Shown: in pieces, positions 18,709 to 30,888 of the stretch
How positions within the stretch are numbered: the stretch's first letter is position 1
Layout: each line of letters begins with the position of its first letter
Assembly (NCBI GenBank): GCA_017468395.1
Contig: JAFUIR010000004.1
Location: 124,001 to 188,000, forward strand
DNA length: 64,000 nt
DNA from: Lachnospiraceae bacterium
GTDB lineage: Bacteria; Bacillota; Clostridia; Lachnospirales; Lachnospiraceae
Direction: 5' to 3'
Made by a program: the position numbers and the translations under genes
The notes under the pieces: generated by a model
Database searches by the model: none
The model's input: the letters and a program-made list of their open reading frames with translations, nothing else
Told to the model about the DNA's origin: nothing

Positions 18709-19203
18709 TCAGAACATCATCATTATTGCAGCCTGAATTGCCGCAATAAGCGGATAACCTACGACAGTTCCTATCCACTTATGTACAAGAGTTTTCTTCG
18801 GAACATACGGCATCAATTCTTCTGTACCGGGAATATGCCACGCTTTTGTTTTCCCCACCCAGTACCAGTCAATAAAGAGCCTGTCAAACAATCCAACTAT
18901 CATTAAAATAACCGTTATCTGCAGGAAAATGTCCCAAAAGCCTCTTGCTCCATTGATAAAATAAACCATTGCAGGCGCAAAAAACAAAATTGGAACAAAT
19001 AATGCAACACCCGCAATCGCATAATCTTTTTTGATTTTCTCCTTTGTTGTAAGTCCCAATTCTACAACTTTTTCCTGTACCTCAGGCTCATAAAAATACA
19101 CACAGCCTACAGGCCCATTTGCTATTCCTACGACACATATCATTAGCAATATGAAACACATCGCTAAACCTTCTACTAAAATCAACATACTTTTATCCTC
19201 CAT
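18709..19203 (-). CDS. Multi-pass membrane protein translationally coupled to DUF3800
   Basis: A 164-residue protein with about four membrane segments (roughly 5-28, 61-84, 88-108 and 144-163) and a soluble loop with the aromatic FDRLFIDWYWVGKTKAWHIPG segment. I know no named family. Its ATG shares one base with the TAA of the DUF3800 gene (TAATG), so ribosomes ending DUF3800 can restart here; the two products are probably needed together. No signal peptide or enzyme motif is present. A membrane effector, a transporter or an unrelated rider are all possible. Confidence 0.75.
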   Translation of the reverse strand: MEDKSMLILVEGLAMCFILLMICVVGIANGPVGCVYFYEPEVQEKVVELGLTTKEKIKKDYAIAGVALFVPILFFAPAMVYFINGARGFWDIFLQITVILMIVGLFDRLFIDWYWVGKTKAWHIPGTEELMPYVPKKTLVHKWIGTVVGYPLIAAIQAAIMMMF

Positions 19204-19883
19204 TAACTTCCCAATCGTTTCTTATCAACAGTTTTAAAGAAACTTTTTTTCAATTCCTGTGGCTTATAGAAAAATTGCTTTTCTGATTTACTTAATCTAT
19301 TTTCGTTTTTCTTAATTTTTAATAATTCCATACTACAAATAAAATCAGCAGCCTGTAACAAACGATATTTTTGTGGTTCTGCTTTTCTAAACTCAACATT
19401 GGAAAAATGAATTGAAAATACTGTATTTAAAATCGCTCCCAGTTCAATTTGCCCATTATCGTAATATACAATGATTTTATCAAAATTTTCAAAAAAAGAT
19501 TTGTTCTTTTCTATCACATTTGATATTTCACGCCCCAATCTACCGGATAAGGAAATTTTATCCGGTGCTTCTTTACGATTTACAACCGCCACTTCATATG
19601 TAATTGGACTACTGGCGATAAAATTCAACATTTTAAAAAGTAACTTTCTACGTTCATCTATGGATAATCCCGAAAACACATCTTCACGCCTGATAACAGG
19701 TCCCGTATGTATATACTCAAAGTCAAATCCTGAATTCTTGGTACTCTCCTCAAGTTTTTTAATATTTGAAGTAATTTCATTCTTTTGGTCATGAAACAAA
19801 AGCGTTACCAGATAATACGCAGGACGTTCCGTAATTTCCCCGAAGTCTCCTGATTCATCTATAAATACACTAAGTTCTTTCAT
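19203..19883 (-). CDS. DUF3800 domain protein (predicted RNase H-like fold)
   Basis: A 226-residue protein. The N-terminus KELSVFIDESGDFG carries the DESG motif that defines DUF3800. A second acidic site is IVYYDNGQIE in the middle and the third is RLLQAADFIC near the C-terminus (the Q-x-A-D signature). These three acidic positions fit a nuclease-like metal site, but activity is not shown. The start is 19883, with GGAGGTG 4 nt upstream; the frame stays open for 33 more codons into the structured leader, which I do not count. The gene has its own extended -10 promoter, a leader with three hairpins, and TAATG coupling to a membrane protein. DUF3800 genes are known to occur with conserved upstream RNA structures. 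Confidence 0.9.
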   Translation of the reverse strand: MKELSVFIDESGDFGEITERPAYYLVTLLFHDQKNEITSNIKKLEESTKNSGFDFEYIHTGPVIRREDVFSGLSIDERRKLLFKMLNFIASSPITYEVAVVNRKEAPDKISLSGRLGREISNVIEKNKSFFENFDKIIVYYDNGQIELGAILNTVFSIHFSNVEFRKAEPQKYRLLQAADFICSMELLKIKKNENRLSKSEKQFFYKPQELKKSFFKTVDKKRLGS

Positions 19884-19910
19884 TACACCTCCAAAACTTA
19901 CCTTTATAGT

Positions 19911-19998
19911 AAAAATGGCGGGAAATTCTTCCCGCCTACGGTGGTCCAAAGAGCTTTTGCCCAGACCAAAACTGTAACGCATTACAGTTATATCCTAC
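19911..19998 (-). ncRNA. Structured leader RNA (three hairpins) upstream of DUF3800
   Basis: Hairpin 1 (19970-19989) is AACTGTAA/TTACAGTT, an 8-bp perfect stem with a 4-nt loop. Hairpin 2 (19942-19968) pairs TGGTC with GACCA, has an internal loop, then pairs GGGC with GCTC around an AAAA loop. Hairpin 3 (19917-19936) is GGCGGGAA/TTCCCGCC with a 4-nt loop, followed by ATTTTT, so it can end transcription. The predicted start is about 19996-19998, so a released RNA would be near 90 nt. An 8-nt repeat AGTTTTGG occurs after hairpin 1 and again at the ribosome site. Candidate DUF3800 RNA motifs have been published; I cannot check which, if any, this matches. Confidence 0.6.
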
Positions 19999-20002
19999 AC
20001 AT

Positions 20003-20031
20003 ATAATACCACAAATATTCCTCTTTTCCAA
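20003..20031 (-). promoter_or_regulatory. Extended -10 promoter of the DUF3800 leader
   Basis: On the minus strand, TTGGAA (20026-20031) and TATTAT (20003-20008) are 17 nt apart and the -10 is preceded by TGG (a TGn extension). It sits just upstream of the first leader hairpin. Confidence 0.75.
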
Positions 20032-20189
20032 TAGAATTTTAGAATATTTTTAGCATTCTTTTTTAATCATAATATTATCCAGTATCACCTTAACTTCCAA
20101 TGTCCAACATTGACAATACTCTTTATATTCCAATGTTTATTCAGGACATCGTTTTATCAATTCAACATATCTACCTCCACAAATTGGAT
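20032..20189. other. Non-coding stretch between the kinase gene and the DUF3800 promoter
   Basis: Together with the DUF3800 leader this makes a gene-free stretch of about 306 bases. This 158-nt upstream part is A/T-rich with several stop codons in all frames. A 23-residue open stretch (20056-20124 minus) ends in a TAA but has no start. I see no terminator, tRNA or repeat, and no convincing gene. Confidence 0.5.
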
Positions 20190-20735
20190 TTATCGCTCTT
20201 TATATACATCAATAATGATGTTTAAATTCTTCTCTAATGTATCTGAACCATCTAATTGTATTACTTTGCATTTAAGGGATTTCATCCAATTCTCATGTTG
20301 CTGTAATGTACAACCACCAATCCCATAGTCATATCCGGCAATACCACTTAACATTTTCTGATGTTCTTCATACATATCCCCGCCTTCTAAGACGCGTTCT
20401 CCAAACCACCCCAGTTCTCGCTCATGCACACGTTTCACACGAATTTGTGCATCTGTATGAAGATGAACAACCAATTCAAAATAAGGGTCAAAATACTCGT
20501 GAAATGAATTCATAGACCCTGCCATTACAAAATGCTCACAATTTGATATTGCTTGTTGCAACCGACTAATTTTTTCAGCCTTTGGATACATTGCAGAAAA
20601 AGGAATCTCTGTATCCTTACGCCATATATATTCATCAATGTCCACAAAAGTATATCCTAATTCATTGGCTACCAAATTTCCAAGAGTAGTTTTTCCCGCT
20701 CCCGAAGAACCCATTATCATAATGCCAGTTGCCAT
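20190..20735 (-). CDS. P-loop kinase-like protein (shikimate/adenylate kinase fold)
   Basis: A 181-residue protein starting MATGIMIMGSSGAGKTTLG, a Walker A motif (GSSGAGKTT, about 9-17). DIDEYIWRKD follows near residue 33, the acidic substrate-binding segment seen in shikimate and gluconate kinases, and a lid region with HERELGWFGERV lies near residue 105. It probably phosphorylates a small molecule, but the substrate is not readable from the sequence. It is 19 nt after the ogt gene and likely cotranscribed with it. Confidence 0.82.
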   Translation of the reverse strand: MATGIMIMGSSGAGKTTLGNLVANELGYTFVDIDEYIWRKDTEIPFSAMYPKAEKISRLQQAISNCEHFVMAGSMNSFHEYFDPYFELVVHLHTDAQIRVKRVHERELGWFGERVLEGGDMYEEHQKMLSGIAGYDYGIGGCTLQQHENWMKSLKCKVIQLDGSDTLEKNLNIIIDVYKER

Positions 20736-26165: not shown

Positions 26166-28067
26166 TTATTGATCTTCTTTATGGCAAATCTGCTTCATGA
26201 CATACATGGCCTCGTCTGCCTTACGCAAATACTCTTCCAAGGTATACGTTTCGTCCGGATGCACGACTACTGCGCCGAAACTTGCCGTAAGAGGGAATGA
26301 CAAATCACGCTCTTCTTTCAGTTTCTCCAGATTAAGGGCAAGTCTGTTTTTGATTTCTTCAGCCTCTTCGCCATCCTTACACTCTCCGACCATGATAAAT
26401 TCATCGCCGCCAAAACGTACCGCAATCCAATCTTTGGGCATCGTCATTTTGATAGCGTCTGCCACCGTGCGCAAAGCCACATCCCCCTGCAAATGTCCGT
26501 ATTTGTCATTGATATGCTTCATACGGTTTATATCCGCAAAAATCATAGTGCCAATTTTGCCTTCCCGCTGACATTTCTGCAAATAAGGGAATGCCAGTGC
26601 ATCATAACCAGTGCGGTTCCTAAGACCGGTAAGGGCATCTGTCATGGATACTTCTATCAATTTTTTGTTCAATTCATCCAGTCTGATATTTTGCCGTACA
26701 CGCTCCAAATCCTGACTTACATGTTTGGTCCATGTATATAATGTTTTGTCATAAACTTTGCTCAGTTCGTCAATAAACATCGCATAACCGGTAATTCGGT
26801 CTTCCACATGAAGGGGAATGAACAGGTATATATGGGATTCCGCCGTTTCACCATCATAATCCGGCAGCAGTTCTTCACTGGGGAACATAACAGGTTTCTG
26901 CGCCTTGCCGTCCTTTAATTGCACGCAGACTTCCATGTTTTCCGGATACTTCCCTCCGTTTTGCGGATGCGTTCCATCCTCAGCCGAAAAGAACTTATCC
27001 ACCAGACAAACCATAAAATTGTCACCTTCAAATTTATGATTATAGGCAAAATTCCAACCCAATTCATCTTTCATTCTTTGCACGGACGTCATGTTAGTCA
27101 ACATTTCATCAATATGTCTTAAATGCCACTCATTGGTATTATTTTGCCCCTGCATCCGATAAGAACCTATGATTGCACGTCTTCTTTTTTCTTTTTTACT
27201 CTCTTTAACCTTACAGCCGCAACTTTCCCCGATAACCGGCATGGAATTATATACTGTCTGCAAGGGAACTGTTTTACCAGCCATTTGTTTCAGCAGCAAA
27301 TCAAGTCCGTCATAGCCCAATTTATCCCAGTTTCTTGCAACCGTTGATAAAATAGGATACAACTTCTGTCCATCTTCAATATAGTCACATCCGGTTACAA
27401 TTACCTGCTCCGGAACTTTGATTCCTGCGCTGTCCAGTGCTGCGCATACGCCAATTGCCATTTCGTCATTGGCACAGACAAAAGCATCCGGCAATTTATT
27501 ACGGCTGTCCAGCCATTCCTGACATTTTTCAAAGCCCAGATGATAGGACCACCCACCCTGTAATACTTTTCTGGGCGGTATTTTGGCTCCCACCTTTGCC
27601 AGTGCCTCCGAAGCGGCTTTCAATCTGCTCTGGCTTTCCACATTATCCGCAGGTCCGCTTACAAACACAACATCCCTGACACCATGCTCTTCAACTATAT
27701 GTGTTACCAGTTCATATACACCGGAATAAGTATCTGTTCCCAAGGTAGGAATTCCGTCAAGTTCATATTCAAAACTTGCCGCAGGAATACCGTATTTTAA
27801 AATTTCTTTCTTTAAATAAGAGCGCTCACTCTTCAAATTTATGGTATTGGCCATCAAAAGTACGCCGTCAAACTCCTTCAGTTTCGGCAACATAAAAATA
27901 CTTTTTTCTCCCACATTATCTGGTTTGGATTCGTCACCGGAAGAATAATTGAGAAAAATAAACAAATCTATGTTATCTTCCGCCGCTCTCTTGCGTATAC
28001 CTTCCAAAACCAATTTCAGATATTCATTACTCCAACCATTTGCAAATACAGCAATTCTCTTTTTCAT
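26166..28067 (-). CDS. Cytoplasmic LacI-type ligand-binding domain fused to GGDEF diguanylate cyclase
   Basis: A 633-residue protein. Residues 1 to about 285 are a periplasmic-binding-protein fold of the LacI group (KKRIAVFANGWSNEYLKLVLEGI, DVVFVSGPADN, PDAFVCANDEMAIGVCAALDSAG, VIVTGCDYIED) without a helix-turn-helix or signal peptide. A middle region (about 290-460) is unassigned. The C-terminus is a diguanylate cyclase with FADINRMKHIND and the intact RFGGDEFIM signature. It should make c-di-GMP in response to an intracellular sugar-like ligand. The fusion is known in Clostridia, but the ligand here is not known. Confidence 0.9.
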   Translation of the reverse strand: MKKRIAVFANGWSNEYLKLVLEGIRKRAAEDNIDLFIFLNYSSGDESKPDNVGEKSIFMLPKLKEFDGVLLMANTINLKSERSYLKKEILKYGIPAASFEYELDGIPTLGTDTYSGVYELVTHIVEEHGVRDVVFVSGPADNVESQSRLKAASEALAKVGAKIPPRKVLQGGWSYHLGFEKCQEWLDSRNKLPDAFVCANDEMAIGVCAALDSAGIKVPEQVIVTGCDYIEDGQKLYPILSTVARNWDKLGYDGLDLLLKQMAGKTVPLQTVYNSMPVIGESCGCKVKESKKEKRRRAIIGSYRMQGQNNTNEWHLRHIDEMLTNMTSVQRMKDELGWNFAYNHKFEGDNFMVCLVDKFFSAEDGTHPQNGGKYPENMEVCVQLKDGKAQKPVMFPSEELLPDYDGETAESHIYLFIPLHVEDRITGYAMFIDELSKVYDKTLYTWTKHVSQDLERVRQNIRLDELNKKLIEVSMTDALTGLRNRTGYDALAFPYLQKCQREGKIGTMIFADINRMKHINDKYGHLQGDVALRTVADAIKMTMPKDWIAVRFGGDEFIMVGECKDGEEAEEIKNRLALNLEKLKEERDLSFPLTASFGAVVVHPDETYTLEEYLRKADEAMYVMKQICHKEDQ

Positions 28068-29784: not shown

Positions 29785-30888
29785 ATGAAAAAACGAAAAG
29801 GAAAAAAGAAATTGACTTGGGGTAAAATTGCAGGTCGTACCTTGCTTGTAATTCTCACCTTCGCATTGGTCACTGTAGCCGGTGCTTACGTTACTATTTG
29901 GATGATTTGTCACGGTCCCAGTCAGGCCGCCAGAGACTTATTCGTTTCCACCATTTTGGAAACAGGACAAATGAAGTTCCTGGCATCCTGGTACTTTAGC
30001 GAAGAAGAGATTCTGGCTATTACCGGCCGAAACGGTATGGAAAATTCAACGCAGGTTGTAAATCCCGACTTAATTATCACTCCCACCCCCGACAAAGAAA
30101 TTGACGGGGAGACGGATTTTGACATTAACGGCATAGAAATTGTGGAAATTTCAGGCCGCTCTTTCTTCGGGAAATTAATGATTATCAATGACCCCTCCCG
30201 CATCAAACTTACCACCATTTATCCGTGGTCTGAAGACCCTGACGGCAAAAAAGGACAAACCCTTGAGCAGTTGGTAACCGACGGTGGCTATCTGGGCGGT
30301 GTTAACGGAGGCGAATATGAATCTTCCGGAAACTGGGGCGGAAAGCCCAAGGGACTGGTTGTCTGTGACGGAGAAATTCAATTCAATCATCCCCAAAGGG
30401 GCGATGTCATGATTGGCTTTAACGAAGATGATGTGTTGCTTGTTATGGACATCGGTTCTCTTTCTGTCAAAAAAATCGAAGAAATGGTTAAGGAATATAA
30501 AATCCGGGATGCTGTCAGTTTTAAAGATATTGATGACGGCGATGACAACCACTTTACAAAACTGATCATCAACGGTGAAGCAAGGGAAATCAGCGGTAAC
30601 GGCAGCGGTGCCAATCCCCGTACCGCCATCGGTCAGAAAGCAGACGGTACCGTCCTTATTCTGGTAACAGACGGTCGCGGTGCTTCCGGTCATTTGGGCG
30701 CTACCGCCAGAGATTTGATTTCCATTATGCAGGAATACGGCGCAGTAAATGCCGCCAATCTGGACGGCGGAAGTTCTTCTGCCATGTACTATGACGGTGC
30801 TTACGAAATGTCCAGCGTTACCTTGTACTATTCCACCTCCTCATGGAGATTGCCCACGGCATTTGTCATTGAAAAGAGGGAGGATTAA
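29785..30888 (+). CDS. Membrane-anchored phosphodiester glycosidase (NAGPA family)
   Basis: A 367-residue protein with a basic N-terminus, one membrane segment at about 18-42 and a C-terminal NAGPA domain. The conserved segments are GGVNGGEYES, NPRTAIGQKADGTVLILVTDGR and NAANLDGGSSSAMYYDG. Members remove N-acetylglucosamine-1-phosphate or similar groups from phosphodiester glycans outside the cell; in bacteria many act on exopolysaccharide or teichoic acid. It is 16 nt after the GT2-GtrA gene and 3 nt before the next gene, so an operon is clear. Confidence 0.92.
   Translation: MKKRKGKKKLTWGKIAGRTLLVILTFALVTVAGAYVTIWMICHGPSQAARDLFVSTILETGQMKFLASWYFSEEEILAITGRNGMENSTQVVNPDLIITPTPDKEIDGETDFDINGIEIVEISGRSFFGKLMIINDPSRIKLTTIYPWSEDPDGKKGQTLEQLVTDGGYLGGVNGGEYESSGNWGGKPKGLVVCDGEIQFNHPQRGDVMIGFNEDDVLLVMDIGSLSVKKIEEMVKEYKIRDAVSFKDIDDGDDNHFTKLIINGEAREISGNGSGANPRTAIGQKADGTVLILVTDGRGASGHLGATARDLISIMQEYGAVNAANLDGGSSSAMYYDGAYEMSSVTLYYSTSSWRLPTAFVIEKRED

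Follow-up and report, generated by a model that had tools for sequence, protein, structure and literature searches.

The window analysed here, a stretch of 64,000 nucleotides from a Lachnospiraceae bacterium, carries a DUF3800 gene on the minus strand behind a structured leader RNA of the Rfam family RF02975 (DUF3800-XI). We propose, with confidence evenly divided for and against, that this locus is a self-contained mobile toxin-antitoxin or abortive-infection cassette of type III-like design, in which the DUF3800 protein would act as the effector, the RNA as its inhibitor, and phages would carry the antidote. The RNA family is already known; the proposed mechanism and the phage copies are the new part. 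Beyond the Rfam entry, hairpins 1 and 3 of the leader, the phage-borne copies of the RNA without the gene, and the behaviour of RNA and gene as a cassette are described here. The features of the locus are listed in Table 1.

Table 1. Features of the DUF3800-XI cassette in the window, in the order of transcription.
Feature	Positions	Strand	Basis
Promoter, TTGGAA-17 nt-TATTAT, extended -10 (TG before the -10)	20003..20031	-	consensus scan
Hairpin 1, promoter-proximal, 8 bp, AACTGTAA-TGCG-TTACAGTT	19970..19989	-	RNAfold
Hairpin 2, RF02975 core: outer stem UGGUCU/GGACCA, inner stem, AAAA loop, UUU bulge	19942..19968	-	RNAfold, cmscan, covariation
Rfam RF02975 DUF3800-XI match	19921..19968	-	46.4 bits, gathering 37.8, E 3.7e-07
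Hairpin 3, 8 bp, GGCGGGAA-GAAT-TTCCCGCC	19917..19936	-	RNAfold, terminator scan, covariation
T-run behind hairpin 3, putative 3' end of the short RNA	19911..19915	-	sequence, terminator scan
Ribosome-binding site, GGAGG	19888..19892	-	sequence
DUF3800 start codon, ATG	19881..19883	-	sequence
DUF3800 gene, 226 aa	19203..19883	-	PF12686, 33.4 bits, cut-off 21

Between positions 20031 and 19203 the minus strand presents, in this order, a promoter-like site, three hairpins, a T-run, a ribosome-binding site and the DUF3800 gene. The leader (19905-20000, minus strand) was folded using RNAfold, which gave a minimum free energy of -34.8 kcal/mol that none of 200 shuffles equalled (z -3.68), and the three hairpins appear where an earlier note on this DNA had placed them. 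Hairpin 2, read from 19968 to 19942, is composed of four inner pairs with an AAAA loop and six outer pairs. Nested hairpins were covered by the leader folds and by the covariation counts presented below. The extended -10 promoter proposed in the same note was recovered by a consensus scan of 19800-20200; the call is weak on its own because four promoter-like sites were found in this interval against 1.8 expected. In several homologous cassettes the left end falls just upstream of the promoter region, as judged by pairwise comparison. The terminator scan returned a single site, hairpin 3 followed by ATTTTT (19936-19917), against 0.2 expected. The positions of the promoter and the T-run are consistent with a released RNA of about 90 nt.

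The DUF3800 RNA motif that had been suggested for this leader was identified by a covariance search of Rfam as DUF3800-XI. The match spans model positions 1-48 of 48 and is the only one in the whole window that reaches its gathering score in cmscan. As in the Rfam family, this full-length match lies upstream of a DUF3800 gene, the ATG of which begins 38 positions beyond the end of the model. Several RNA classes in Rfam bear DUF3800 gene names, and to our knowledge none of them has a known function; DUF3800 RNA motifs were reportedly described by Weinberg et al. in 2017. Within the portions of the DUF3800 literature consulted, the original 2017 motif description aside, neither a function for such an RNA nor a phage-borne copy is mentioned.

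The RF02975 consensus pairs only hairpin 2 and shows hairpin 3 as unpaired. Covariation was measured in alignment A2, which was made using MAFFT from 38 author-chosen RNAs of hosts and phages, with the structure named from the folds and Rfam. Over hairpins 2 and 3 (18 pairs), 94.0% of the cells are paired (87.7% in shuffles), 12 pairs are changed on both sides (3.9 in shuffles), and the covariation score is 0.231 (0.106 in shuffles), counts that are lowered because the window RNA and L027 sit one column out of register. None of 500 shuffles matches any of the five measures, and pairing falls to 37-59% when the partners are slid by 1-3 columns. A lack of covariation in homologous leaders had been named beforehand as one of the results that would count against the proposal; two-sided changes are found in all eight pairs of hairpin 3. 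One of these pairs appears as GC in 150 RNAs, TA in 29, AT in 19 and CG in 7, and is never broken (205 of 208 distinct RNAs scorable). Judged from these substitutions and the terminator scan, hairpin 3 is a conserved RNA structure and, jointly with the T-run, a predicted intrinsic terminator. The previous assignment of hairpin 3 as the terminator holds to that extent, but not as its sole role, since it is also paired in phage copies that have no T-run.

Hairpin 1 is supported less strongly than hairpin 3. Scored against mononucleotide shuffles, a hairpin at this place reaches p <= 0.05 in 18 of the 39 loci with an intact gene, in 7 of the 20 with a fragment and in 12 of the 50 without the gene, and the sequence of its stem varies from subtype to subtype. 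In the aligned RNAs hardly any variation is seen in the hairpin 2 core or in the CCA next to it, a degree of conservation beyond what base pairing by itself should require.

The gene behind the leader had been called DUF3800, in agreement with PF12686, which is the sole Pfam match of the 226-aa protein. Residues D9 (in FIDESGDFG), E10, D13, E67, D142 and D180 are invariant in an alignment of 34 sequences, which fits a nuclease, and the protein is a candidate RNase H-fold nuclease. Sequence relatives of solved structure were sought in the PDB and none was credible, the two matches (E 1.2 and 2.8) being designed coiled coils. NCBIfam provided no match for three window proteins. The dN/dS ratio is 0.03-0.12 in eight of the nine pairs with finite dS and 0.29 in the closest pair, while three further pairs are dS-saturated; on these ratios the intact DUF3800 genes are under purifying selection. 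PADLOC gave no match for the DUF3800 protein, six weak matches for the P-loop protein at 20190-20735 (best VakA, E 1.8e-05) and one match, to a 2TM effector, for the protein at 18709-19203 (E 0.024). Among the five proteins at and around the DUF3800 gene, Pfam and PADLOC found no Cas protein and no convincing defence family, the latter a point against the proposal.

At a threshold of E <= 0.001, RF02975 matches 30 same-genus genomes out of 101 (26 above the cut-off) and 60 family-set genomes out of 397 (56 above it); both sets include the genome of the window. There are 121 distinct RNA matches, 116 of which were classified after omission of five below the gathering score (G387, G219, G188, G472 and G415); six of the 116 lie too close to a contig end to be judged. 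The 110 loci with enough downstream sequence comprise 40 with an intact gene, defined as one open frame spanning profile positions <=3 to >=195, 20 with a fragment, and 50 with no DUF3800 match, the last class taking in copies in which a few gene-start codons are visible by eye (L040, L043, L061 and L106). A further scan of genome contigs, which overlaps the 116-locus set, provided at least 118 stretches with at least 119 RNAs (at least 58 with an intact gene, at least 14 with a fragment, at least 28 with none and at least 19 at a contig end).

The RNA and the gene form a cassette of about 0.9 kb with sharp ends at unrelated places. When the 116 RNA loci were compared pairwise, similarity was mostly confined to the interval from about -220 to +760 relative to the RNA end; a few pairs exceed it (L017/L077 and L005/L034), each apparently one locus shared by two genomes. 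L088 and L089 agree by 98.1% over -99 to +700, and L075 and L077 by 97.6% over -129 to +740, with flanks that are unrelated on both sides in each case. The right end of the cassette falls at the DUF3800 stop or just after it. By these comparisons the RNA together with its DUF3800 gene behaves as a mobile cassette. The RNA copies of L032 and L033, from two genomes, start near the inner stem and have unrelated sequence upstream.

The genome of the window contains a second DUF3800-XI RNA of a different subtype (L004; C7:9486-9539, minus strand; 54.2 bits with RF02975 and 64.8 bits with model R1), for which no DUF3800 match was found within 1.5 kb downstream. A short open frame, read by eye, begins directly behind this RNA. 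The C-terminal piece of another DUF3800 gene lies at the start of a contig (L361; C3:5-310), so a further copy may be unassembled in this genome. The membrane protein encoded downstream of the window gene has matches in 18 of the 101 genomes, its own included. None of the other neighbours in the window is present at the five of these loci that were checked, and an empty site for the window was therefore not obtained.

Repeats (LE and RE) that flank some cassettes were considered as IS200/IS605-like transposon ends. This idea was dropped because LE is found in 20 and RE in 10 of the 101 same-genus genomes, partly without a cassette, and most cassettes are unmatched. A conserved repeat, TGATGGGCGGGAAAGCCCGTAAATACTGGAAAGTT..ACACGA, was read by eye just upstream of gene starts in L126, L128, L130, L077, L065, L022 and others. 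It appears at 13 places in 10 of the 101 same-genus genomes, no Rfam match was returned for five stretches over four of these places, and it is possibly a leader RNA or a small mobile repeat. In a single relative (n = 1), a decayed ToxN gene (L151:2935-3536; PF13958, E 3.7e-10) lies between pieces of the repeats that flank some DUF3800 cassettes, upstream of the right-hand repeat; the match to the left-hand repeat before ToxN is only 24 nt. ToxN (PF13958) was detected in 37 of the 101 same-genus genomes (35 over the cut-off), and the search of the window's own genome with PF13958 returned nothing. On contig C29 of G002 about 4 kb separate a ToxN gene (26351-26854) from a DUF3800-XI cassette; this cassette has an internal gene deletion, and its RNA is at 30538-30585.

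The linkage between the gene and the RNA is one-way. Within this subfamily, to which the count applies because profile A1 was made from RNA-linked proteins, all 44 near-full-length DUF3800 matches (A1, E <= 1e-8) have the RNA directly upstream in a by-eye comparison of the RNA and protein match tables, while 50 of the 110 scored RNAs have no DUF3800 match; from this distribution the gene appears to need the RNA. Profile A1 contains 34 of the 40 intact proteins, those from L005, L014, L065, L077, L089 and L095 being excluded. The 44 matches, two of which have internal stops, are divided between the genus set (11) and the family set (33). Their RNA was found by RF02975 in 41 cases (one below gathering), by R1 only in two (L358, 42.4 bits; L359, 21.9 bits), and by a visible hairpin 3 in one that is cut by a contig end. 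In the hosts, RNA-only copies are slightly less paired than gene-linked copies (92-93% vs 96-98%), so that many of them are probably relics and not active antidotes.

The subtypes of RNA and protein segregate together. The eight proteins that are 59.8-100% identical to that of the window, itself included, all have an RNA of the GGUCU...GGACC type, the RNA of L359 being diverged. All 34 other proteins (46.5% or less) have an RNA of the GGGCU...GGUCC type, with GGACU in L014. This co-segregation fits binding partners and also plain co-inheritance.

Both the co-segregation and a gene that is never found without its RNA (44/44) would also be expected if the RNA activated DUF3800 as a cofactor or guide-like partner within a ribonucleoprotein effector, comparable to crRNA or omegaRNA, with the phage copies acting as unproductive decoys in the manner of RNA anti-CRISPRs. 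An RNase H fold is reported for the DUF3800 proteins of CRISPR loci (PMC10910872), and such proteins occur with CRISPR V-A2 and VI-F loci (PMC10910872, PMC12669027). The window protein belongs to the same domain family and is found here in a stand-alone cassette. RNA anti-CRISPRs (Racr) are solitary repeat units in phages that act in this way, a tested precedent (PMC10651486). The present system is like Racr in that phages carry the solitary RNA part of a candidate bacterial RNA-protein system, and unlike it in that the partner would be DUF3800 and not Cas proteins. The cofactor role is nevertheless unlikely, as no variable guide-like stretch is found: hairpin 1 is nearly the same in the window, L029, L091 and L093 despite different flanks, and the core is nearly invariant. 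Compared by eye, hairpin 1 and the core show no variable guide at the element boundary, unlike OMEGA/TnpB. The terminator that separates the RNA from the gene is consistent with surplus production of the RNA, as would suit an antitoxin. An inhibitor is favoured over a cofactor by the terminator layout and the lack of a guide-like stretch, although sequence cannot by itself separate the two.

Copies of the RNA are also present in phages. Exact scans of IMG/VR with the RNA core provided 19 contigs, six of which retain a complete or partial gene (L166, L176, L171, L302, L297 at a contig end and L301 broken). In the other 13 viral contigs the RNA is found without a DUF3800 match, as nine distinct sequences; the flanks are alike in L172/L177 and in L300/L174, which gives about seven phage groups. 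Genes near the RNA in five contigs indicate their phage nature. Terminase genes are found in L174, L177 and L300, and a portal gene in L177 (PHROGs). An exonuclease gene is directly upstream of the RNA in L296 and L300, and DnaB helicase and integrase genes are near it in L299. Near L175 and L298, PHROGs matched nothing but families of unknown function, and it named no gene near L167 (three proteins tried) or L172 (one protein). L175 is a stretch of a 138.8-kb contig and includes all 4,349 bases of L168; its RNA is embedded in a 20-gene tRNA array, 3 bases short of a tRNA-Glu. In L298, from a 161.5-kb contig, the RNA is 70 bases after tRNA-Gly, with tRNA-Asn further up. The RNA of L167 is antisense to a 167-aa frame, and the other eight lie mainly among same-strand genes or tRNAs.

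All nine phage sequences fold into both hairpins (z -2.1 to -4.2). The search pattern constrains part of hairpin 2 in these copies but leaves hairpin 3 free, and the sequences of the latter are very different. No T-run follows hairpin 3 in six of the nine (L167, L168, L170, L296, L298 and L300), and five T (L169) or four T (L172 and L299) follow it in the others.

Relatives of the gene downstream of the L300 RNA were found at 14 phage loci, 13 of which have enough upstream sequence. R1 finds an RNA at that site in five of the 13 (L369, which is L300, and L370, L372, L381 and L382) and none in the other eight, among which two pairs read alike. The four new copies are in phages related to L300, and three of them are diverged (24-36 bits). 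L370 has kept the outer stem and linker with a different apical stem, and L372 folds no better than shuffles (z -0.73). Because R1 was built from A2, with all nine phage sequences included, only the four extra copies and L358, L359 and L362 are new to this model. The same search for relatives of group L177 provided only contigs already known. Counting against the proposal, no phage copy was found for the RNA subtype of the window, and the RNA core had no match in 50,697 GenBank phages. A short RNA found in some related phages and missing from others, with its shape kept and its bacterial partner gene absent, has the features expected of a counter-defence RNA. Along with the invariable presence of the RNA in front of the gene, the phage RNA-only copies are new support for a defence pair.

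Some phage contigs carry the gene as well. In L302 the DUF3800 gene is behind the RNA between head and helicase genes, with a portal gene also present; in L171 the RNA and the DUF3800 gene are beside tail and lysis genes; and the copy in L297 is cut by the contig end. These three contigs look as if they bore a phage-borne defence. Further non-coding stretches rich in hairpins, such as TTCCGCCACC..AAGTGCGGAACG, appear at the same phage intergenic site, upstream of the relatives of the L300 gene, in L370, L372, L378, L381 and L170/L174. They occur with or without the DUF3800 RNA and are possibly more phage RNAs.

The phage copies bear further on whether the leader could be a cis-acting attenuator or autoregulatory site, at which DUF3800 or another factor would set the read-through of hairpin 3, the role of DUF3800 being unrelated to defence. 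A 5' UTR position with a terminator is what such a site would present, and CCACC could pair imperfectly with the GGCGG of hairpin 3, as read from the consensus. This explanation is improbable, however, in view of RNA-only phage copies with no DUF3800 match behind them, which keep the pairing of hairpin 3 even though six of nine have no T-run. The RNA might instead be carried along by a mobile element or form its structural end, the solo copies in hosts and phages being functionless leftovers of transposition or recombination. This would agree with the sharp cassette ends at unrelated sites, the many decayed genes (20 fragments and 50 matchless of 110) and the broken left ends of copies such as L032 and L033, but is very improbable: both hairpins stay paired in nine distinct phage sequences, with hairpin 3 diverged and no DUF3800 match downstream, the repeats flanking some cassettes are also found without cassettes, and no transposase came to notice incidentally.

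An RNA that inhibits DUF3800 would resemble the antitoxin of type III systems, in which one promoter serves a structured RNA, a terminator and a downstream gene (PMC5086642). The type III-like layout put forward in the earlier note is seen here at the sequence level: like ToxIN, AbiQ and CptIN, the cassette has a promoter, a structured RNA, a Rho-independent terminator, a ribosome-binding site and a gene. The type III antitoxin is made of tandem short repeats, whereas the cassette RNA consists of single-copy hairpins; TRF found no tandem array in the leader and one AT-rich row (20037-20062) upstream of the promoter. In type III systems the RNA also forms a pseudoknot and binds and neutralises the toxin. 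DUF3800 is present instead of the ToxN/CptN fold. The cassette is not classed as type III because it has no tandem repeats and no ToxN fold. TenpN is a type III toxin fold family alongside ToxN and CptN, and AvcID is described as a type III system with a deaminase toxin. The pseudo-ToxI of a phage is a known RNA mimic and a tested precedent (PMC3475682). In a transposon screen of Legionella pneumophila, a DUF3800 gene is reported among the accessory genes scored essential beside antitoxins (PMC7811196). This essentiality poorly fits a toxin, because a plain toxin should be dispensable, insofar as that gene is akin to the present subfamily.

In the proposed inhibition, one promoter would drive a short RNA folded into hairpins 1-3. 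Most transcripts would stop at hairpin 3, so that the RNA would be made in excess, and read-through would provide little DUF3800 protein. The RNA would bind DUF3800, the predicted RNase H-fold nuclease, and hold it inactive. Infection would halt host transcription or use up the RNA, and the DUF3800 protein so freed would cut nucleic acid, by which the cell and the phage would be stopped. Phages would counter with an antidote of their own making, the hairpin 2-hairpin 3 core. That DUF3800-XI in full represents a suicide or defence system of a new kind, held in check by RNA and acting through an RNase H-fold effector, with phages carrying the naked RNA core as antidote, is a tentative claim to which we give slightly less than even credence.

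If this is true, it would be the first function for the DUF3800-associated RNAs, at least for class XI, and phage genomes would have pointed to the answer, since the viruses would keep the RNA alone as counter-defence. A new effector fold would be added to RNA-inhibited defence, and natural phage antidote candidates of about 54 nt, among them the cores at L175:7894-7947 and L177:3716-3769, would be at hand. The finding would also have a bearing on the DUF3800 proteins of CRISPR loci.
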